A program made the translations under genes and the position numbers. From positions 1 to 40,354 of the forward strand of contig CAIKOD010000181.1 in the NCBI GenBank assembly GCA_903828975.1: DNA of 40,354 bases, in the 5' to 3' direction. The notes under the pieces were generated by a model. That model searched no databases. It worked only from the letters and a program-made list of their open reading frames with translations, and was not told where the DNA came from. Below are positions 10,356 through 20,282 of this stretch, piece by piece (position 1 is the stretch's first letter; each line of letters starts with the position of its first letter). This DNA comes from an uncultured Methanomicrobiales archaeon (lineage in GTDB: Archaea; Halobacteriota; Methanomicrobia; Methanomicrobiales; Methanospirillaceae).

Positions 10356-10371
10356 AATAACAATTGTGAAC
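10356..10371 (+). promoter_or_regulatory. Operator-like palindrome before the desulfurase-cysK operon
   Basis: AATAACAATTGTGAAC matches the near-perfect palindrome ATTCACAATTGTGAAT found before the HTH regulator and tRNA-Cys; its right half and centre are identical over ACAATTGTGAA. It lies 70 bp before the ATG and just downstream of an A/T-rich stretch (10329-10347) that probably holds the TATA box, so a bound protein would block initiation. Confidence 0.6.
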
Positions 10372-10440
10372 ATTTTTAACTACGGCGATTCTTATGAGTA
10401 ATGCATATCATGGGGGCAATTTTTCTCCAGGTGACAATAT

Positions 10441-11607
10441 ATGTATGATCTTCAAAAATTACGCCATGAATTTCCGATACTCTCAAAGTGCGTCTATCTC
10501 GACAGCGCCTCGACAAGCCAGACCCCCAAATGTTCTGTCGATGCCATGTGTGAATATTTCTTCGAATACGCAGCGAATCACGGAAGAGGCGCCCATCACC
10601 TCGCCCGGAAGACCACGGAGAAGTACGAAGAGACCAGGACACGGTTAGGAAATTTTCTAAAGGTCTCCCCGGATCACATTATTTTCACAAAAAATACGAC
10701 GGACGCAGTAAATACGGTTGCAAACGGGCTTACATGGAAACGAGGTGACGAAATAATTACCACCTGGCTGGAACACCATTCGAATCTTCTTCCGTGGATG
10801 AACCTTAAGAAAAAGGGTGTCCGTGTTACTTTCGTCCAGCATGAGAATGGATATCTCAATCCCCAGAACATCCAGGAGGCTATCTGCTCTAAGACGAGAT
10901 TGGTTGCTGTCACCCATATGCCCAATATTCTCGGGACAGTCCAGCCGGTAGGGGCTATCGGCCGCATCGCCCACGATGCCGGGGTTCCGGTCATAGTAGA
11001 TGGAGCACAGTCTGTGGGGCATTTCCCGGTTGATGTTACCTACATCGATTACCTCGCAATTCCCGGGCATAAAGGACTTCTCGGACCTCAGGGGACGGGG
11101 GCACTCTATATGAAAGATCCAGAGTCCCTGAATTGTTCGATCTTCGGGGGTGGGATGGTGGTATCGGTATCCCATAAGACTGTAAAATTACTACCTCCTC
11201 CTGCAAAATTTGAACCCGGGACACCCAATATCCCCGGGGTTATCGGTCTCGGGCCAGCAATCGACCTCGTCAGTTCACTCGGTGTCAGGAATATCCATGC
11301 ACATGAAAAGCAGCTCGGCTCCCGGATGTACGAAGGACTCGTGAAGATACCAGGTGTAAGTGTCTACAGCCCGAACGGGACTGGTGTCGTTTCCTTCAAT
11401 GTCGCAGGGGAGAATCCCAATGAATTTTCCCGTAAGCTTGACGATTACAAGAAGATCTGCGTGAGAAGTGGCATGCACTGCGCAGAACCACTTGCAAGCA
11501 GTTATCATTGCGAAGGCACAATCCGGGCCTCCGTTGGTTGTTATACCACGAACGATGAGGTCGATGCCCTGATTGAGAGTGTCCGGTATCTGACCGGAAA
11601 CATGTAG
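10441..11607 (+). CDS. Cysteine desulfurase-like class V aminotransferase (SufS/Csd type)
   Basis: A 388-residue PLP enzyme. Residues 17-24 (CVYLDSAS) open the fold, EHHSN (about 111-115) is the cofactor-contact block, DGAQSVGH (187-194) holds the PLP Asp, Lys211 in PGHKGLLGPQGTG is the Schiff-base lysine, and Cys347 in RSGMHCAEP is the persulfide-forming Cys position of SufS-type enzymes. It would take sulfur from cysteine for Fe-S or thio-cofactor synthesis. The start has a GGTGA site six bases upstream. Only seven bases separate it from cysteine synthase, so the two are one operon, apparently under the palindrome at 10356. A role as a cysteine or selenocysteine lyase cannot be excluded. 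Confidence 0.85.
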   Translation: MYDLQKLRHEFPILSKCVYLDSASTSQTPKCSVDAMCEYFFEYAANHGRGAHHLARKTTEKYEETRTRLGNFLKVSPDHIIFTKNTTDAVNTVANGLTWKRGDEIITTWLEHHSNLLPWMNLKKKGVRVTFVQHENGYLNPQNIQEAICSKTRLVAVTHMPNILGTVQPVGAIGRIAHDAGVPVIVDGAQSVGHFPVDVTYIDYLAIPGHKGLLGPQGTGALYMKDPESLNCSIFGGGMVVSVSHKTVKLLPPPAKFEPGTPNIPGVIGLGPAIDLVSSLGVRNIHAHEKQLGSRMYEGLVKIPGVSVYSPNGTGVVSFNVAGENPNEFSRKLDDYKKICVRSGMHCAEPLASSYHCEGTIRASVGCYTTNDEVDALIESVRYLTGNM

Positions 11608-11614
11608 GTCTCCC

Positions 11615-12544
11615 GTGATCCCTGTGAATCCAACGCGAACGGTTCTCGATGCCATTGGGAATACCCCGCTCATCGAGATCAGGAACCTCAATCCCTATCC
11701 GGCGATTCGTATCTTTGCAAAGTTTGAAGGCTGCAACCCCGGGGGATCAATCAAGGATCGTATAGCCCTTTACATGATCCTGGCCGCGGAACGATCCGGG
11801 GAACTCACGCACGATAAGATCATTATGGAACCGACCTCCGGGAATACCGGTATAGCGCTCGCCATGATTGGAGCTGCGAAAGGCTACCAGGTAATGCTGG
11901 TGATGCCGGGTTGTGTAAGTGTCGAACGAAGACGAATTATCGAGGCGTTCGGTGCTGAAGTAGTGATGACTCCGGCAGAAGAGGGAACTGATGGAGCGAT
12001 TCGGCGTGCATGGAGATTTGTAGAGGAGAACCCGGATAAATATTATATGCCTGATCAGTTCTCAAATCCTGCGAATATCCAGGCCCATTATGAGACCACG
12101 GGTCCTGAAATATATCATGAACTGGATGGGAAAATCGATTGTTTTGTTGCAGGCATGGGGACCACCGGGACTCTGATGGGGGTAGGGAAGTACTTAAAGG
12201 AAATGAACCAGGGGATACGCATCATCGGAGTAGAACCGGAACTGGGACATGCGATCCAAGGATTGAAAAACATGGAGGAAGCAATAGTTCCTGATATTTA
12301 CAAGGCAAATTTCCTCGATCAAAAGATACGGATCGGGGACGAGGAAGCGTATGTAATGGCACGGAAGATTGCGACACGCGAAGGGATTTTCACGGGGATG
12401 TCGAGCGGTGCGGCACTGGCAGGCGTGCTTAAAGTCGCAGAGTCGCTCGGGTCAGGAACCATTGTCACCATATTTCCGGACAGGGGGGACCGCTATCTCA
12501 GTACTACGCTTTTCCGTTCCATTTGCAGCGATTGTAACCCTTAG
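11615..12544 (+). CDS. cysK: Cysteine synthase family PLP enzyme
   Basis: A 309-residue fold-type II PLP enzyme. Lys47 in NPGGSIKDR is the Schiff-base lysine, PTSGNTGIA (about 73-81) binds substrate/cofactor, and GMGTTGTLMG holds the phosphate-binding loop. It would join sulfide to an activated serine (O-acetyl- or O-phosphoserine) to make cysteine; the NP-GGSIKDR form resembles CysM/CBS-type enzymes, so O-phosphoserine is a realistic donor in a methanogen. The C-terminus ends in a CSDC motif. The start is GTG 11615, seven bases after the desulfurase stop. The organism thus has a free-cysteine route as well as the tRNA-dependent one. Confidence 0.88.
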   Translation: MIPVNPTRTVLDAIGNTPLIEIRNLNPYPAIRIFAKFEGCNPGGSIKDRIALYMILAAERSGELTHDKIIMEPTSGNTGIALAMIGAAKGYQVMLVMPGCVSVERRRIIEAFGAEVVMTPAEEGTDGAIRRAWRFVEENPDKYYMPDQFSNPANIQAHYETTGPEIYHELDGKIDCFVAGMGTTGTLMGVGKYLKEMNQGIRIIGVEPELGHAIQGLKNMEEAIVPDIYKANFLDQKIRIGDEEAYVMARKIATREGIFTGMSSGAALAGVLKVAESLGSGTIVTIFPDRGDRYLSTTLFRSICSDCNP

Positions 12545-12738
12545 GTAGCGGATTAATATTCGTATGTAAATCCGGGGATACGGGGAAGCAACCGGGGATA
12601 TTCTTCCCTTGTTTCCAAACAGGTTAGTCTGAAAGTGCCTGCCCAAATCAAGATCGCTGCTTCTTGTACTCTTTTTAATTCATTTCCCTGCCAGGATGAG
12701 ACTTTTTGTTTTCCAGGTCGAGGGATATTGATACAATA

Positions 12739-13047
12739 TTAATAGTATGCTTGTATACCCGGGACCCAGTTCGCAAGCATCGTGGTGAACAATTCATGGG
12801 ACTCTTCCAGATGCTCTTCATGGTACCTGACATAAAGGGTCTGATCGCCTACCATACCCTTGATGCTGAAATAGTCCTGCTTGGAGAATGAGAAGAAGGG
12901 CTGTTTCAGGTTATCCAGGATCTTTACCGTGCCAAACTCCCCGAAATATGTAATGAGATCCCTAGTGACCTCTGCGTCTACTGAGTATTCTTTCAGCACG
13001 GTCCCGTCAACACACCGTTTGAATTTATTGGTTTTGAGGATCTGCAT
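12739..13047 (-). CDS. Small conserved-looking protein after a cysteine desulfurase, function unknown
   Basis: A 102-residue protein I do not recognise. It is soluble, with no signal peptide or transmembrane segment, mixed alpha/beta in appearance, and has one Cys (residue 12, KRCVDG). It contains an aromatic-rich middle (QPFFSFSKQDYFSIKGM) and a charged helix (RYHEEHLEESHELF). It begins 18 bases after the stop of the class V aminotransferase on the same strand, so co-transcription is likely. The placement suggests a sulfur-transfer partner or specificity factor of that enzyme; this is inference from position only. Confidence 0.7.
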   Translation of the reverse strand: MQILKTNKFKRCVDGTVLKEYSVDAEVTRDLITYFGEFGTVKILDNLKQPFFSFSKQDYFSIKGMVGDQTLYVRYHEEHLEESHELFTTMLANWVPGIQAYY

Positions 13048-13065
13048 GATTTCACCAATTAATTA

Positions 13066-14205
13066 TCAGATGGTAGCAGCAATTTCTTCAACTGCAGCTA
13101 CAGTCGCCTCACATTCTTCGATCGTATTCATGCATGAAAGGCTTATCCGGACTCCCCCCGAGGCATTGATCCGCTCGTGAATCAGCGGGGAACAATGGAG
13201 ACCGGTCCGGACCACGATCCGGTATGCTTTCCAGAGGATAAACCCGATATCTTCACTTTCCATGCCTTTAACCGTGAACGTAAGCACCGGTATATCAGGA
13301 GACGAATTGTATAACCTGACCCCGTCGATCTCCCCGAGCGCCTTAACAAGGTACGAGGTCATAGTGCGGGAGTGCGAAAGGATTGTGTCAACCCCTCTCC
13401 TTTCTACAAACCCTGTCCCGGCATCGAGAGCGGCTATCCCCGGATAGTTTGGTGTCCCTGGCTCGAATTTCAGGGGCAACTCTTCTGGCTGGTACTGACT
13501 AGCCGAGTCGACCCCGGTACCCCCCTGCCGGATTGGATCAACCTGTTCCGGGCTCCTGATGTAGAAACCCCCCGTTCCCGGCAGGCCGAACAATGATTTA
13601 TGGCCGGTGAATACGAACGCGTCAACCGGGAGTTTCCCGGGCTTTGCCGGGTATTGTCCGGCGGTCTGGGCACCGTCCACCAGGAAAAATACTCCTGATG
13701 ATCTCACCAGGTTTCCAATGGGTTCAATGTCCTGCACAGAACCAAGCACATTCGAACCATGCCCTATTACCACCAGTGCGGTGTCATCCGTCATTATTTC
13801 CCCGATCTCTTCCGGTTTCACGTGAGGGTCGGTTGTCCGGATAATAGAGAGCGAACACTTCCCCTCCCGCTCAAGCGTCCGGAGCGGCCGTAGTACAGAG
13901 TTATGTTCAAGATCCGTGGTGATCGCATGGAATGGCTTGCCGTAACGTTTCGCAAAGCCATGGATCAGCAGGTTCAACGAGTCTGTCGCGCTCGATGTGA
14001 AGATAATATGTTCCGGGCTGGAGACCCCGAAGAAATCTGCAACAGTCTGCCGGGTTGTTCCGATGTAATCCGGTGCATCCTTGACCGTCGTGCGGCCATG
14101 TTCATAGAAAGGAGAGGAGAACACATCAGCTGCAGCTTTCAGGACCTCGGGGGGTTTGGGCCAGGTTGTCGCGGCGTTGTTCAGATAGATTAATGGTTCA
14201 GTCAC
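13066..14205 (-). CDS. Cysteine desulfurase family protein (second class V aminotransferase)
   Basis: A 379-residue PLP enzyme of the cysteine desulfurase family, of the YLNNAATTWPKPPEV subtype (residues 7-21). LEHNS (99-103), DGAQTAGQ (177-184), Lys203 in FTGHKSLFGLPGTGG and Cys338 in RTGLHCSPL are the expected cofactor, Schiff-base and persulfide positions. It is only distantly similar to the enzyme at 10441, and has a longer KAYRIVVRTG loop. GTG 14205 is chosen because the family starts here and a GGTG site precedes it; the frame is open to 14250. It is followed by the unknown 102-residue protein. Likely a dedicated sulfur donor; the acceptor is unknown. Confidence 0.85.
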   Translation of the reverse strand: MTEPLIYLNNAATTWPKPPEVLKAAADVFSSPFYEHGRTTVKDAPDYIGTTRQTVADFFGVSSPEHIIFTSSATDSLNLLIHGFAKRYGKPFHAITTDLEHNSVLRPLRTLEREGKCSLSIIRTTDPHVKPEEIGEIMTDDTALVVIGHGSNVLGSVQDIEPIGNLVRSSGVFFLVDGAQTAGQYPAKPGKLPVDAFVFTGHKSLFGLPGTGGFYIRSPEQVDPIRQGGTGVDSASQYQPEELPLKFEPGTPNYPGIAALDAGTGFVERRGVDTILSHSRTMTSYLVKALGEIDGVRLYNSSPDIPVLTFTVKGMESEDIGFILWKAYRIVVRTGLHCSPLIHERINASGGVRISLSCMNTIEECEATVAAVEEIAATI

Positions 14206-14365
14206 GGGAGCACCGGAATACAATTCCTGATTTTTTGAGTAACCCAACAATTTGCTAATTGCCGGAATCTCTTAGGATCCCGGCATTTTAACAATAAAAT
14301 TTGCATTCTCTTCCTGAGTATGGTGGATTGGGTTGAAGAGGTCATGTCCGGGTATTCATGTGTAT

Positions 14366-15163
14366 TCATAATACCTCGTCCATACTTCCACTCCGGTAGC
14401 CGGCAAGGTCGAGCGTCACATAGTCTATTCCGATTCCCCTGAAGGACTGAATTATCTCTTCACGAATGATCAGGAGTTTTTCAAAATCTGCAGCAGGGAC
14501 CTCGATCCTGGCAACCCCGCCATGCAGCCGGACTCTTATCTGTATAAAACCCTTCCCGACAAGAAACGCTTCAGCCTCCTCAATCATCATGAGTTTTTTT
14601 GCAGTAATCTTATCCCCATATGGGAACCGGGATGCAAGACACGCGGCTGATGGTTTATTCCAGACCCGAAGTCCGTAATCATGTGCAACCTGCCTGATAT
14701 CTTCCTTGGTGATACCTGTCATGATGAAGGGATGGATTATACCCTCTTCGGTAGCAGCGGTAAGACCTGGCCGGTATTCTCCCATATCCGAAACATTGAT
14801 CCCGTCAGCGATACATGCAAGGCCATAGTTCATTGCAGCTTCCTTCAGGTACCTGGCCGAGATTTTTTTACAGAGGTAGCAGCGGTCAGTCGGATTTTTG
14901 CGGAGGTTTTCGTGTTCCATGTGCGGGACTTCAACAATATCGAGCAGTAATCCAAGGTCTTCTGCAATCTGTTTCGCCTCTGCCAGCGCTAATCTCGGCA
15001 CCAGCGGGCTGTCAAGAAGAATGGCACGGCTCCGGTCCCCCAGCACATCGCGGGCAAGTACTGCGAGGAGGGTGCTGTCAACACCACCTGAAAAAGAGAC
15101 AAGCATCGACCCGCATCCGGCGATGATATTTTCAAGGGCTTTTTTCTTATGTGCAATGGGCAT
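14366..15163 (-). CDS. larE: LarE-family ATP-dependent sulfurtransferase (PP-loop)
   Basis: A 265-residue PP-loop protein with SFSGGVDST (residues 23-31), the LarE-type NPTDRCYLCKK block (Cys95, Cys98) and SAACLASRFPYG (Cys175). Lactobacillus LarE gives up its own single Cys sulfur to make the nickel-pincer nucleotide, whereas three-Cys members carry a [4Fe-4S] cluster at CxxC plus a third Cys and can act catalytically. The pattern here is the three-Cys one. It lies 61 bp after the Cys-rich HTH gene and may be co-transcribed with it. LarC is encoded at 36320-37549; I see no LarA or LarB, so the thio-product in this organism is open. Confidence 0.85.
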   Translation of the reverse strand: MPIAHKKKALENIIAGCGSMLVSFSGGVDSTLLAVLARDVLGDRSRAILLDSPLVPRLALAEAKQIAEDLGLLLDIVEVPHMEHENLRKNPTDRCYLCKKISARYLKEAAMNYGLACIADGINVSDMGEYRPGLTAATEEGIIHPFIMTGITKEDIRQVAHDYGLRVWNKPSAACLASRFPYGDKITAKKLMMIEEAEAFLVGKGFIQIRVRLHGGVARIEVPAADFEKLLIIREEIIQSFRGIGIDYVTLDLAGYRSGSMDEVL

Positions 15164-15224
15164 TAATCACCAGGAATCAGGAAATTCGAATTTAAAACCA
15201 TAAATGATAATTTTCCGGTATCCA

Positions 15225-15566
15225 TCAGGTGCTGCACGGTCCAAGTCCGGTTTCCGCGCCACCACACTGGTTCTCCTCGCCTTCACGAAGTTGCTGGCAG
15301 ATTGTACAGATACGCTTGACGAGGTTCACATCTTTTTTATCCCTCAAATCCACTGCAAGCTGCTCAATAGACCGCTTGACATAGTTCTCAAACTCAATCC
15401 GGTACCCCCGTTTTCCGGAAAGGTACTGTGAGACAGCAGAGGGTGCGATCTCGAGCATCCGTGAGGCTTCAACCTGGGAGACCCCGCACTTCACAAGTTC
15501 AACAGCTATCGCAGCCCTTATTGCAGGAAGGATATCCCAAACTACTTTCTGACATGGAGCTTCCAT
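15225..15566 (-). CDS. Small HTH transcriptional regulator with Cys-rich C-terminus
   Basis: A 113-residue protein with an XRE/lambda-type helix-turn-helix: GVSQVEASRMLEIAPSAVSQYLSG at residues 28-51. A C-terminal Cys group follows (Cys87, Cys90, Cys101, Cys111: CxxC-x10-C-x9-C), plus Cys5 and Cys27 around the HTH. Four spaced Cys suggest a metal or Fe-S site able to sense sulfide, cysteine or redox state. ATG 15566 is chosen over the adjacent GTG. It is divergent from tRNA-Cys/SepCysS, and the perfect palindrome at 15613-15630 lies 47 bp before its start, fitting autoregulation. I propose it binds the ACAATTGT palindromes; this is inference. Confidence 0.78.
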   Translation of the reverse strand: MEAPCQKVVWDILPAIRAAIAVELVKCGVSQVEASRMLEIAPSAVSQYLSGKRGYRIEFENYVKRSIEQLAVDLRDKKDVNLVKRICTICQQLREGEENQCGGAETGLGPCST

Positions 15567-15612
15567 CACATCACAACCCTTATGTTATTCCAGTCGTGAC
15601 ATAATAACAACG

Positions 15613-15630
15613 CATTCACAATTGTGAATG
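15613..15630. promoter_or_regulatory. Perfect 18-bp palindrome before the HTH regulator gene
   Basis: CATTCACAATTGTGAATG is a perfect inverted repeat centred at 15621.5, in the 260-bp divergent gap between the regulator and tRNA-Cys. It has the same core as the palindromes at 15773, 15801 and 10356. Its position 47-64 bp upstream of the regulator start suits autoregulation. Confidence 0.7.
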
Positions 15631-15765
15631 TGCTTTTCAAGAAGAAAAACATTCGGTTCCTTTTATCCGTAAAATGTGCTGGACTGGATTGCTATCATCA
15701 ATAGGAACAAATTGTAATCACCAGTTCCTGGGATTTTTCTGTGAAAACTCGCCGAAAAGATAACC

Positions 15766-15773
15766 TATAAATA
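15766..15773 (+). promoter_or_regulatory. TATA box of the tRNA-Cys/SepCysS unit
   Basis: TATAAATA preceded by a purine-rich AAAAGATAACC BRE-like stretch. Transcription would start about 25 bases on, near 15795, giving a roughly 30-nt leader before the tRNA. The palindrome at 15773 begins at its last base. Confidence 0.65.
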
Positions 15774-15788
15774 TTCACAATTGTTATC
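15773..15788. promoter_or_regulatory. Operator-like palindrome, tRNA-Cys promoter, site 1
   Basis: ATTCACAATTGTTATC keeps one perfect half of the palindrome and the AACAATTGT core; its reverse complement, GATAACAATTGTGAAT, closely matches the site at 10356. It abuts the TATA box, so a bound regulator would compete with TBP/TFB or RNA polymerase. Confidence 0.65.
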
Positions 15789-15800
15789 TATTATGATAAG

Positions 15801-15816
15801 ATTCACAATTGTGAAT
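15801..15816. promoter_or_regulatory. Operator-like palindrome, tRNA-Cys promoter, site 2
   Basis: ATTCACAATTGTGAAT, a perfect 16-bp palindrome identical to the core of 15613-15630. Its centre is 28 bp from site 1, just downstream of the expected start point and nine bases before the tRNA. The roughly three-turn spacing would allow cooperative binding. Confidence 0.7.
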
Positions 15817-15825
15817 TTCAATCGT

Positions 15826-15897
15826 GCCAGAGTGGCGGAGTGGCTACGCGGCTGACTGCAGATCAGCTACAACCCGGTTCGAATCCGGGCTCTGGCT
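15826..15897 (+). tRNA. tRNA-Cys (anticodon GCA)
   Basis: A complete 72-nt cloverleaf: acceptor GCCAGAG/CTCTGGC, three-pair D stem GCG/CGC with a GG-containing loop, anticodon stem GCTGA/TCAGC around CTGCAGA (anticodon GCA), variable loop TACAA, T arm CCCGG-TTCGAAT-CCGGG, and discriminator U73, a Cys identity base. CCA is not encoded. It is the substrate for phosphoseryl-tRNA synthetase and then SepCysS, whose gene starts 12 nt downstream, so the two are probably one transcript. There is no intron. Confidence 0.95.
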
Positions 15898-15909
15898 TGT
15901 GGATTGACC

Positions 15910-17274
15910 ATGAGTATCAGGATCCAGAAAACATTTGAAGCACTCTTCGCACTCGAAGAAGTCCGGGGTCTATTTCGCGAGTCCCTTCCTACAGGTTTCG
16001 ATGCACAGGAAGAGTCCGCGTTCAGGCAGCGGATTGCCGATATTAAGGCAATCCTTGCTGATCTCGAGGCGGGTACCGGAACACCGAAGGTGACAAAGAT
16101 CGCCGGTTCCATCGACCTCCGCACGCGGGAAGAAGAGGCAATCAACATCCAGCCGATCCAGGCAGCAGGGCGATTGACAACGGAGGCGAGGAAGGCCCTC
16201 ATCTCCTATGGTGACGGGTACTCAACGTGTGACGCCTGCCGGAAGCCATTCCGGCTGGACAAGATCACCAAGCCAGGGATCGCGGAGTTCCATGCAGAAC
16301 TAGCAAAGTTCGTCAACATGGACCATGCCCGGGTCGTACCCGGTGCTCGCCGGGGGTTCCAGGCAGTGGCCGGAACGCTAGTTAACAAGGGCGATAGTGT
16401 GATAGTTACCGCCCTGGCCCACTATACCGAGTTCCTCGCTGTTGAGAACGCTGGTGGGAATGTCAGGGAAGTACCACTGGATGATAAGAATATTGTAACC
16501 GGTGAAGCAACAGCACTGAAAATCGAAGAGATCAGACAGGAGACAGGAAAACTCCCCGTGCTTGTCATGATCGACCATTTCGATTACCAGTTCGCAAACG
16601 AGCACGAAGTAAAAGAGATCGGGAAAGTTGCTCACCAGTATGATATCCCGTTCCTCTACAACGGTGCCTACACGGTAGGTGTCCTCCCTGTGGATGGAAA
16701 GAAGATCGGAGCTGATTTTGTAGTCGGCTCAGGCCATAAGAGTATGGCATCGGTCGCACCGTCGGGTGTACTTGCGATGACCGATGAATGGGTGCCGAAG
16801 GCACTCCGCACAACCGCGATGGTTGGTGACCTGACAAAACGCAGATTTGGGATAAAAGAGGTCGAAATGCTTGGTTGCACGCTGATGGGAGGGACGCTGC
16901 TCTCGATGATGGCATCATTCCCGACAGTAAAAGCCCGGACCCTAATGTGGGAAGACGAAGTAAAGAGATCCAACTACTTTATCGACCGGCTCCTGAAGAT
17001 AACCGGGACCAAGGTGCTCTCCGAGTACCCCCGGAAGCATACATTAACCAAGGTTGATACAACCGGAAGCTTTGATAAGATTGCCCAGACTCACAAACGT
17101 CGAGGGTTCTACCTCAGCGATGAGTTGTCCACCCGTGGCATTGTCGGGGAGTTTGCCGGCGCAACAAAGACCTGGAAGCTGAACACCTATGGTCTCTCGG
17201 ACAAGAAGATCCACTATCTTGCCGATGCCTTTGAAGAAGTGGCGGAGAAACACGGCCTTGTCGTTGAAAAATAA
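15910..17274 (+). CDS. pscS: O-phospho-L-seryl-tRNA:Cys-tRNA synthase (SepCysS)
   Basis: A 454-residue PLP enzyme that converts Sep-tRNA-Cys to Cys-tRNA-Cys. GSIDLRTREEEAINIQPIQ (residues 66-84), GDGYSTCDAC (Cys107, Cys110), PGARRGF, the AHYTE block, Lys277 in GSGHKS and Cys323 in LGCTLMGG match the family. The CxxC pair and the distant Cys are the three sulfur-handling residues known to be essential in SepCysS. It has about 60 extra N-terminal residues compared with shorter family members, in a helical, charged segment. ATG 15910 follows the tRNA-Cys 3' end by 12 nt with only a weak ribosome binding site, so the processed mRNA would be nearly leaderless. SepRS is not in this window. Confidence 0.93.
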   Translation: MSIRIQKTFEALFALEEVRGLFRESLPTGFDAQEESAFRQRIADIKAILADLEAGTGTPKVTKIAGSIDLRTREEEAINIQPIQAAGRLTTEARKALISYGDGYSTCDACRKPFRLDKITKPGIAEFHAELAKFVNMDHARVVPGARRGFQAVAGTLVNKGDSVIVTALAHYTEFLAVENAGGNVREVPLDDKNIVTGEATALKIEEIRQETGKLPVLVMIDHFDYQFANEHEVKEIGKVAHQYDIPFLYNGAYTVGVLPVDGKKIGADFVVGSGHKSMASVAPSGVLAMTDEWVPKALRTTAMVGDLTKRRFGIKEVEMLGCTLMGGTLLSMMASFPTVKARTLMWEDEVKRSNYFIDRLLKITGTKVLSEYPRKHTLTKVDTTGSFDKIAQTHKRRGFYLSDELSTRGIVGEFAGATKTWKLNTYGLSDKKIHYLADAFEEVAEKHGLVVEK

Positions 17275-17388: not shown

Positions 17389-18705
<1,317 letters not shown>

Positions 18706-18791: not shown

Positions 18792-20282
18792 ATGATCAAA
18801 GGATCAGTAGGACTTGTAACTACGCAATATTATCTCCATTCCTCCCCGCTTGAACTTGAGAGCGGGGAAACACTCCCCTTATTTACACTCGCGTATGAGA
18901 CATACGGGACCCTGAACAAGGAAGCGAGCAATGCTATTCTCTTATGCCATGCCTTGTCCGGTGATGCCCATGCAGCAGGGTTTCATGCTGGTGACGAAAA
19001 ACCGGGATGGTGGGATTCGGTAATTGGTCCCGGGAAGGCATTTGATACCGACAAGTACTTCGTCATCTGTTCGAATGTGATCGGCGGATGTAAAGGTTCG
19101 ACGGGGCCATCGTCTGAAAACCCGGAAACAGGTGAACCGTACGGGATTGCCTTTCCCGTCATAACGATTCGTGACATGGTTAATGCCCAGAAACTCCTGG
19201 TTGAACAACTCGGGATCAACCTGCTCTATGCCGTGGCAGGTGGATCTATGGGCGGTATGCAGGTACTCCAGTGGACGGTAAGCTGGCCTAAGCACGCAAG
19301 TAAGGCGATTGTAATCGCAGCGACCGCCTATTCGACCCCCCAGCAGATCGCATTCAATGAAGTGGGAAGGATCGCCATCACATCTGACCCCGCCTGGGAG
19401 AACGGGGACTACTACCAGCAGAAATCGTACGATTCAAATGGGCCGTTCCAGGGACTTGCACTGGCACGAATGGTCGGGCATATCACCTACCTTTCGAATG
19501 AGTCTATGCACGAGAAGTTTGGCAGGGCGTTGCAGGACAAAGACCGGATAGGTTATAATTTCTCAACTGATTTTGCCGTGGAGAGCTATCTTCATCACCA
19601 GGGTGACACGTTCACGCATCGGTTCGATGCCAATTCATACCTCTACATTACCAAGGCAATTGATTACTTCGACCTGACAAAGGACGGCTCGCTCAGAAAA
19701 GGACTTGCGGGAGTAAACGCAGCCTTCCTGGTCATCTCGGTCTCTTCCGACTGGCTGTATCCCCCGTACCAGTCACAGGAGATCGTATCCGCACTGGCGG
19801 CGAATGACCGTGAAGTCCGTTATAGCGAGATCCAATCCAACTTTGGCCATGACGCGTTCCTGCTGGAATCAGGCCAGATAAATTACCTGATCTCACAGTT
19901 CCTGTCAAAGACCATTGTTGGCGATGTCATGATCCGGGATGTCCCGACCATTGAGGAAGGGGCAACAACTGCGGTGACGGCACGGCGGTTAATCAACCTC
20001 GAGGTAAATCACCTGCCAGTACTCTCATGCAGTGGTCAGCTGGTGGGAATCGTCACATCATGGGATATCGCAAAAGCAGTCGCAAAAAATTTCCTATGGC
20101 TTGATGAAATCATGTCAAAAAATGTCATCACAACGGTCCCGGATGAACCGATCGAATCTGCTGCGAAGAAAATGGAGGAACACTCAATTTCTGCCTTACC
20201 GGTTATCGATGAGGATCAGCATCTTATCGGCCTTATTACCAGTGATGCAATCAGCACGCTTATCGGGAGGAGCAATTCATGA
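18792..20282 (+). CDS. metX: Homoserine O-acetyltransferase fused to two CBS domains
   Basis: A 496-residue protein. Residues 1-370 are a MetX alpha/beta hydrolase: Ser152 in AGGSMGG is the nucleophile, Asp320 (SSDWLYPP) and His353 (GHDAFL) complete the triad, and [21 protein letters not shown] is characteristic. Residues about 378-494 are a pair of CBS motifs ([12 protein letters not shown]..., [14 protein letters not shown]...), which usually bind adenosyl ligands such as ATP, AMP or SAM. The fusion suggests allosteric control of the first methionine-specific step. The stop overlaps the next ATG by four bases (ATGA). Plain MetX enzymes lack the CBS tail. Confidence 0.93.

Follow-up and report, generated by a model that had tools for sequence, protein, structure and literature searches.

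A conserved palindrome at cysteine and sulfur genes and at one class of tRNA-Cys gene in methanogens: the putative operator of a small helix-turn-helix regulator

Why should the same short palindrome stand before genes for free-cysteine synthesis, before the gene of a small helix-turn-helix (HTH) regulator and before a tRNA-Cys gene? The question is raised by a contig of an uncultured Methanomicrobiales archaeon (GenBank assembly GCA_903828975.1, contig CAIKOD010000181.1), whose 40,354 bases we call the window; an earlier note, made from the letters alone, had read the palindrome as the mark of a cysteine/sulfur regulon. A search with ATTCACAATTGTGAAT at up to three mismatches gave four matches in the 40,354 bases, compared with a mean of 0.15 and a maximum of one in 100 shuffles, which agrees with the note's claim of more copies than chance would give. 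The four copies are present at promoters as it had said, although the one placed at 15613 begins at 15614, and there is no fifth copy in the window at this threshold. The gene identities also hold at all four sites, each of which precedes cysteine genes or the linked regulator. The imperfect half that the sites at 10356 and 15773 were said to share is in fact an exact match, the 14-mer at 10357 (+ strand) being the reverse complement of the 14-mer at 15774. The palindrome is real.

We searched the whole genome (2.58 Mb in 186 contigs, 97.8% complete) at the same threshold and found 14 sites, compared with four for the reversed control pattern. Three copies in the genome are perfect: two in the window and one on a second contig (C9:5570-5585; numbers preceded by C, G, L or g are our own handles for contigs, genomes, loci and a genus). 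Two divergent cysteine-desulfurase-like genes flank the copy on C9, their called starts being 120 and 130 bp away from it; a NifU_N/IscU-like gene lies behind one of them and FdhD behind the other. The genome-wide search that the note had proposed thus found the copies not to be scattered, the sole further perfect one lying between two desulfurase-like genes. Nine three-mismatch matches outside the window were considered as extra targets and rejected, as no sulfur-gene homologue of the kinds tested lies within 1.5 kb of any of them.

Does the palindrome follow the regulator from genome to genome? Our family sample comprised 61 genomes, 31 with a close relative of the window regulator (at least 90 bits, a cut of our own) and 30 without, and was searched with the core TTCACAATTGTGAA at up to one mismatch, with the reversed pattern as a control. 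The 31 genomes with a close regulator hold 126 sites and the 30 without it hold 12, while the reversed control gave 10 matches in all 61; at least two sites were found in 23/31 genomes with the regulator and in 3/30 without (Fisher p 3.5e-7). Because site number tracks its presence across the 61 genomes, the linked regulator is the best candidate for the protein that binds the palindrome. A scan of named genomes, in which the best 80 of 158 regulator relatives were kept (from Methanoregula, Methanolinea, Methanocalculus, Methanolobus, Methanococcoides, Methanosarcina and other genera), placed the palindrome at up to two mismatches in the 200 bp that precede the regulator at 68 of the 80 loci, compared with none for the reversed control. 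The best upstream match has no mismatch at 33 of these loci, one at 20 and two at 15.

The genes behind the sites were counted for 113 degenerate sites in 19 genomes, the window's own included; 18 of these have a close regulator above 130 bits and the other is G056, where none was found (G058, with two sites, falls outside the set, and G023 was searched and has no sites). A site was counted as having a target when it was followed within 300 bp by a homologue of the regulator or of the sulfur genes of the window or C9, or within 150 bp by a tRNA-Cys. On this definition 71 of the 113 sites precede targets, compared with 8.2% of positions drawn at random from the same stretches (1,636 of 20,000). 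By kind, the targets are tRNA-Cys (26), SepCysS (23), the regulator (22), desulfurase types (about 21) and cysM-like genes (11), where kinds overlap, one site may count several times, and the desulfurase labels themselves overlap. A wider count of 73/110 is circular, since it used labels picked for genes adjoining the sites (nadA, pdxS, thiF, radical SAM and others), and it came from a simple gene caller and lacked three of the sites. The conservation in related species for which the note had suggested footprinting is therefore seen both at the 68 regulator loci and at these 71 sites. As judged by sequence comparison, the palindrome is conserved and tied to these sulfur and cysteine genes.

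The tRNA-Cys genes of the family sort into three groups that differ in genomic setting. Two queries, the tRNA-Cys of the window and a divergent one from relatives, were run against the 61 genomes; identical copies within a genome were collapsed, and an operator was scored at up to two mismatches within 150 bp. Class (i), the tRNA-Cys of the rRNA operon, has an operator at 0 of 34 scorable genes; it was assigned by a conserved sequence before the tRNA, and Rfam placed 23S and 5S rRNA on the flanks of all five class (i) loci tested and at neither of two other-class loci scanned. Class (ii), the G73 tRNA-Cys (with A37 in 10/12), has an operator at 0 of 12 genes. It was found in exactly 12 of the 61 genomes, those with a CysRS over cut-off, and in several of them (e.g. 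G027 and G003) the cysS match begins about 20 bp after the tRNA. Class (iii) holds the other, extra U73 copies, which often lead SepCysS or radical-SAM genes, and here 23 of 32 scorable genes have an operator, a count that includes two tRNAs (L054 and L104, both with an operator) added from motif-fetched stretches. Classes (i) and (ii) serve as an internal control for class (iii). According to passages in two papers, U73 and a methylated G37 are identity elements for SepRS (PMC9499178; PMC8762117).

In all, 68 of 72 matches were classed, and very divergent copies of classes (i) and (iii) may be missed, as both came from one DNA query. Left out were a degenerate copy in G009, preceded only by a three-mismatch site, one truncated by the end of its contig (G026:C311), and two with an operator just upstream for which ARAGORN made no call (G026:C327 and G017:C134). 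For two copies (L240 and L316) the upstream sequence was too short to score.

A few further placements of tRNA-Cys were seen along the way. Two stretches that match the window tRNA at 74-75% identity and that ARAGORN does not call (L046:7074-7145, minus strand, and L117:3249-3320) lie just behind a palindrome and before desulfurase or SepCysS genes, and may be decayed or unusual copies. In several genomes a further tRNA-Cys leads a radical SAM gene, as at L128:2822-3995 and L126:3691-4815, with a palindrome in L126 and only a decayed one in L128, and an open frame of the same length (L052:606-1741) is led by a tRNA-Cys with the palindrome. Elsewhere a tRNA-Cys stands directly before a ThiF gene (L104:4033-4935) or, in Methanococcoides, before a Thi4 gene (L202:6776-7743), in both cases with a palindrome of one mismatch; these placements suggest a link with thiamine or with another sulfur-carrier pathway.

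Which part of cysteine synthesis in the window genome would the palindrome then control? The rRNA-operon tRNA-Cys (on C140) is operator-free, and an operator stands at just one of two SepCysS loci, namely where the extra tRNA-Cys leads. The SepCysS of the window, which follows this operator-linked tRNA-Cys, is fused to its own N-terminal extension; the one on C57 has no operator and follows a short separate open frame, probably the split SepCysSn form described in a section of PMC5424206. SepRS is encoded on C142, a contig with no operator at up to three mismatches. No CysRS over the cut-off was found in the window genome (best E 7e-8), and in an assembly this fragmented its absence is likely rather than certain. 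Since the second tRNA-Cys and the second SepCysS are operator-free, what is regulated would be a spare set, with another tRNA-dependent route beside it. The earlier note had put the free-cysteine and the tRNA-dependent routes under one control: the shared motif agrees with this, but the palindrome does not govern a sole tRNA-dependent route.

The candidate binder is itself hard to place. Neither sequence nor fold searches gave it a clear place among known regulator families: against PF01381 (HTH_3) it scores 20.8 bits, under the gathering cut-off of 23, NCBIfam gave nothing, and Foldseek gave nothing at E <= 0.001. A profile search of the PDB returned weak matches to lambda-repressor-like proteins (best E 0.034), and no Pfam or NCBIfam match to the Rrf2-family winged helix was found in it at E <= 0.001. 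The predicted fold has five helices with a mean predicted local distance difference test (pLDDT) score of 78. Among the 80 named relatives, an N-terminal P-C, a CxIC and a further cysteine after the CxIC are each kept in 79.

Other regulator-like proteins were noted in the same material. L298:1-1001 and other genomes encode another small HTH protein, in which the cysteines (one near the N-terminus and a CxxC) are similarly arranged. At L169:5016-6206 and L029:634-1827 the regulator and LarE form one continuous frame, a possible fusion or assembly error, and these two loci, from G060 and JAKPPB010000121.1 and on contigs equal in length, are probably from the same genome. A 94-amino-acid winged-helix protein (L116:821-1105, L123:3586-3870, L101:4166-4444, L106:3865-4143) may be a second regulator of the circuit.

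The best explanation of these patterns is a circuit in which the core TTCACAATTGTGAA is the operator of the HTH regulator, and to this circuit as a whole we give a probability of about 0.75. In it the regulator, as a dimer, would most likely repress its own gene together with larE and a desulfurase gene, the desulfurase-cysteine synthase pair, the divergent desulfurase-like pair on C9, and the operon of the spare tRNA-Cys and second SepCysS. When the supply of sulfur, cysteine or iron-sulfur (Fe-S) clusters falls, the regulator would release the DNA and all targets would come on together. The spare tRNA-Cys would then act as a carrier for making extra cysteine, while the operator-free rRNA-operon tRNA-Cys and the other SepCysS locus would serve ordinary translation. 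The steps differ in strength. That the regulator binds the palindrome is very probable, and the placement of sites relative to TATA boxes makes repression, rather than activation, the likely sign of control. The odds are about even that the conserved cysteines bind the signal in the form of an Fe-S cluster, a metal or a thiol, and the role of the spare tRNA-Cys as a biosynthetic carrier could go either way. More tentative, and in our view somewhat less likely to be right than wrong, is the full picture of one tRNA-Cys gene set apart from translation, in which it leads a sulfur operon under a sulfur- or Fe-S-responsive repressor and carries extra cysteine, with the rRNA-operon copy and, where there is one, the G73 copy for CysRS outside this control. 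If true, a metabolic repressor would control single members of a tRNA family by their biosynthetic role.

Several observations weigh against the proposed operator and circuit. Four genomes with a close regulator (G012, G019, G023 and G045) have no site at up to one mismatch, and 7 of the 30 genomes without one have one to four sites each; three of these seven are incomplete (64-84%), and for the others (G007, G015, G016 and G033) completeness is 98% or more. Five genomes carry a second close copy of the regulator, so either copy might act there. At 12 of the 80 named loci the best upstream match has three to six mismatches (seven of them at least five), and in genus g13 no site at up to three mismatches stands before the regulator at the seven loci looked at, where the regulators are about 49-56% identical to the query and some genomes have perfect palindromes elsewhere. 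The same genus contributes five of the nine operator-free extra U73 tRNA-Cys genes. On the strict list, 42 of the 113 sites have no target, and at ten sites in seven genomes the gene behind the palindrome encodes the 94-amino-acid winged-helix protein, which has no known sulfur role. Finally, the regulator of L173 has no CxIC, and the predicted model is weak in the cysteine-rich tail (pLDDT below 50 for residues 98-113) and of no use for showing a metal site.

The alternative that survives best concerns the signal: the regulator may respond to something else, such as oxidants or a metal, and the sulfur genes may form a stress or repair set. Some genes behind other sites (nadA, pdxS, thiF, radical SAM and LarE among them) fit this, and the conserved cysteines could sense oxidants, but most frequent among the targets are genes for cysteine supply or for mobilising sulfur from cysteine, and we consider a different signal unlikely, if still a serious contender. 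A sulfur- or Fe-S-responsive repressor has a counterpart in IscR, the Rrf2-type bacterial Fe-S sensor, as both would be autoregulated repressors of desulfurase and cluster-assembly genes with conserved cysteines; in R. sphaeroides, as reported in PMC4618611, the cluster-bound form of IscR represses. Unlike IscR, the window regulator has no Rrf2 Pfam match and only the weak one to HTH_3, its putative targets include tRNA-Cys and SepCysS, and cluster binding is in its case hypothetical.

The next alternative is that the regulator activates the same genes. We looked for TATA-like boxes in the 60 bases before each of 60 unambiguous sites (of 85) and found 24 centred 29-35 bp before the site start, compared with about 3.6 expected from shuffles, and eight centred 10-13 bp before it, compared with about two, both ranges having been chosen after the counts were seen. 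In the tRNA-Cys promoter of the window, the TATA box borders at its 3' end on the first site, and the second lies 28 bp further downstream. Seven relatives have a pair of sites with precisely this spacing and an eighth has one at 27 bp, and two-site loci in Methanosarcina have the same order with a spacing of 19-20 bp. Archaeal transcription starts about 25-30 bp after the TATA box, and archaeal activators usually bind upstream of TATA/BRE. Given the distance from TATA box to start, many sites would fall at or just past the start, which suits a repressor. It is true that sequence data fix the operator and not the sign of control, and that in the 10-13 bp class the site is close to the TATA box. 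Nevertheless, with TATA-like boxes upstream of the sites in the bases scanned, and with the two tRNA-Cys promoter sites placed as they are, activation seems decidedly improbable.

A different DNA-binding protein, for example a widespread paralogous HTH protein, might instead bind the palindrome, with the neighbouring regulator merely one of its targets. A weaker regulator homologue (below 41 bits) occurs in 48 of the 61 family genomes, that of the window included, and the four that we read (29-43% identity) keep the N-terminal cysteine and a CxxC. The seven genomes that hold sites without a close regulator also speak for such a binder. On the other hand, the weaker homologue is present in site-free genomes too, whereas site number tracks the close regulator, whose own promoter bears a site at 68/80 loci, as expected for an autoregulator, and we therefore give another binder a small chance, below that of activation. 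That the palindrome, short and AT-rich as it is, is a chance or dispersed repeat and no operator is contradicted by the shuffles, the reversed-pattern controls, the random positions and the conserved placement in many genera, and we regard it as next to impossible.

How much of this is new? SurR and ThiR are archaeal regulators of sulfur or cofactor genes, with operators and fusions that differ, as far as we are aware, from those described here. Clade VII SepCysS loci with tRNA-Cys and sulfur genes have been published (Mukai et al. 2017, PMC5424206), and, in the parts of that paper at hand, their neighbourhood is as in the window, with tRNA-Cys beside SepCysS and sulfur genes; its main text contains neither 'regulat' nor 'transcription', and those parts describe no operator or regulator. 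Similarly, the G73 tRNA-Cys with a co-evolved CysRS has been described for Methanospirillum and Methanoregula (Perona et al. 2018, as cited in a passage of PMC8762117). The same co-occurrence is seen here; what is new is that this class is operator-free (0/12) and that most extra U73 copies are operator-linked. In Methanosarcina, the genes beside the regulator at L198 run metY-SepCysS-tRNA-Cys-nadA-thiF-iscU-iscS. This order resembles the isc2 cluster of M. acetivorans, where iscSU2 is grouped with methionine and NAD genes (PMC7585200, in part), and may be the same cluster; the sections of that paper at hand name no regulator or operator for it. In open-licence literature we found no recognisable description of the regulator or the palindrome, nor any operator or regulator for these SepCysS and isc2 neighbourhoods, which is weak evidence of absence. 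We see here an operator-regulator circuit of an ordinary kind in which the target, one tRNA isogene, is unusual. That the palindrome travels with a single small regulator gene suggests a circuit of sulfur control as yet without a name.

The control of cysteine, Fe-S and sulfur supply in methanogens is largely open, though Fe-S enzymes carry methanogenesis. A metabolic regulator acting on one tRNA isogene, with its sister tRNAs excluded, would be unusual, and would offer a handle on whether tRNA-dependent cysteine synthesis feeds the free cysteine pool. As operator and candidate regulator reach Methanosarcina, where genetics works, the proposal is directly testable.

Table 1. Operator copies, promoter elements and genes of the window
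Feature	Position	Strand	Basis and remarks
Operator copy AATAACAATTGTGAAC, 3 mismatches	10356..10371	+	Mismatch search; precedes SufS-like desulfurase and cysteine synthase pair
SufS-like cysteine desulfurase	10441..11607	+	TIGR01979 3.8e-107, under curated cut-off; Pfam Aminotran_5 over cut-off
Cysteine synthase (CysK/CysM family)	11615..12544	+	TIGR01136 378.7 bits, cut-off 344, passed
Open reading frame, 102 amino acids, possible last gene of regulator operon	12739..13047	-	Pfam/NCBIfam: no family
Second cysteine-desulfurase-like aminotransferase V, possibly in regulator operon	13066..14250	-	TIGR01977 2.3e-103, under cut-off; gene order
LarE-type ATP-dependent sulfur transferase	14366..15163	-	TIGR00268 297.7 bits, cut-off 150, passed
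Small HTH (HTH_3-like) regulator, conserved cysteines, proposed palindrome binder	15225..15569	-	114 amino acids; weak HTH_3 match
Perfect operator (0 mismatches)	15614..15629	.	Precedes regulator-larE-desulfurase genes; position conserved in relatives; autoregulation proposed
TATA box TATAAATA of tRNA-Cys, abutting first operator	15766..15773	+	Sequence; same layout in relatives
Operator copy 1, tRNA-Cys-SepCysS promoter, 3 mismatches	15773..15788	.	Mismatch search
Operator copy 2, tRNA-Cys-SepCysS promoter, 0 mismatches	15801..15816	.	Mismatch search
tRNA-Cys (GCA), U73/G37, extra operator-linked copy	15826..15897	+	tRNA search and class comparison
SepCysS with N-terminal extension, likely ATG 15910	15904..17274	+	TIGR02539 391.2 bits, cut-off 365.25, passed; match from residue 73
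O-acetylhomoserine sulfhydrylase (MetY), 3' of SepCysS; putative co-transcription	17407..18705	+	TIGR01326 658 bits, over cut-off
MetX-like acyltransferase with CBS domains, downstream; putative co-transcription	18792..20282	+	NF001209 520 bits, over cut-off

The MetX-like homoserine acyltransferase at the end of this list has CBS domains in two stretches, which suggests that a nucleotide or an S-adenosyl compound controls it allosterically.

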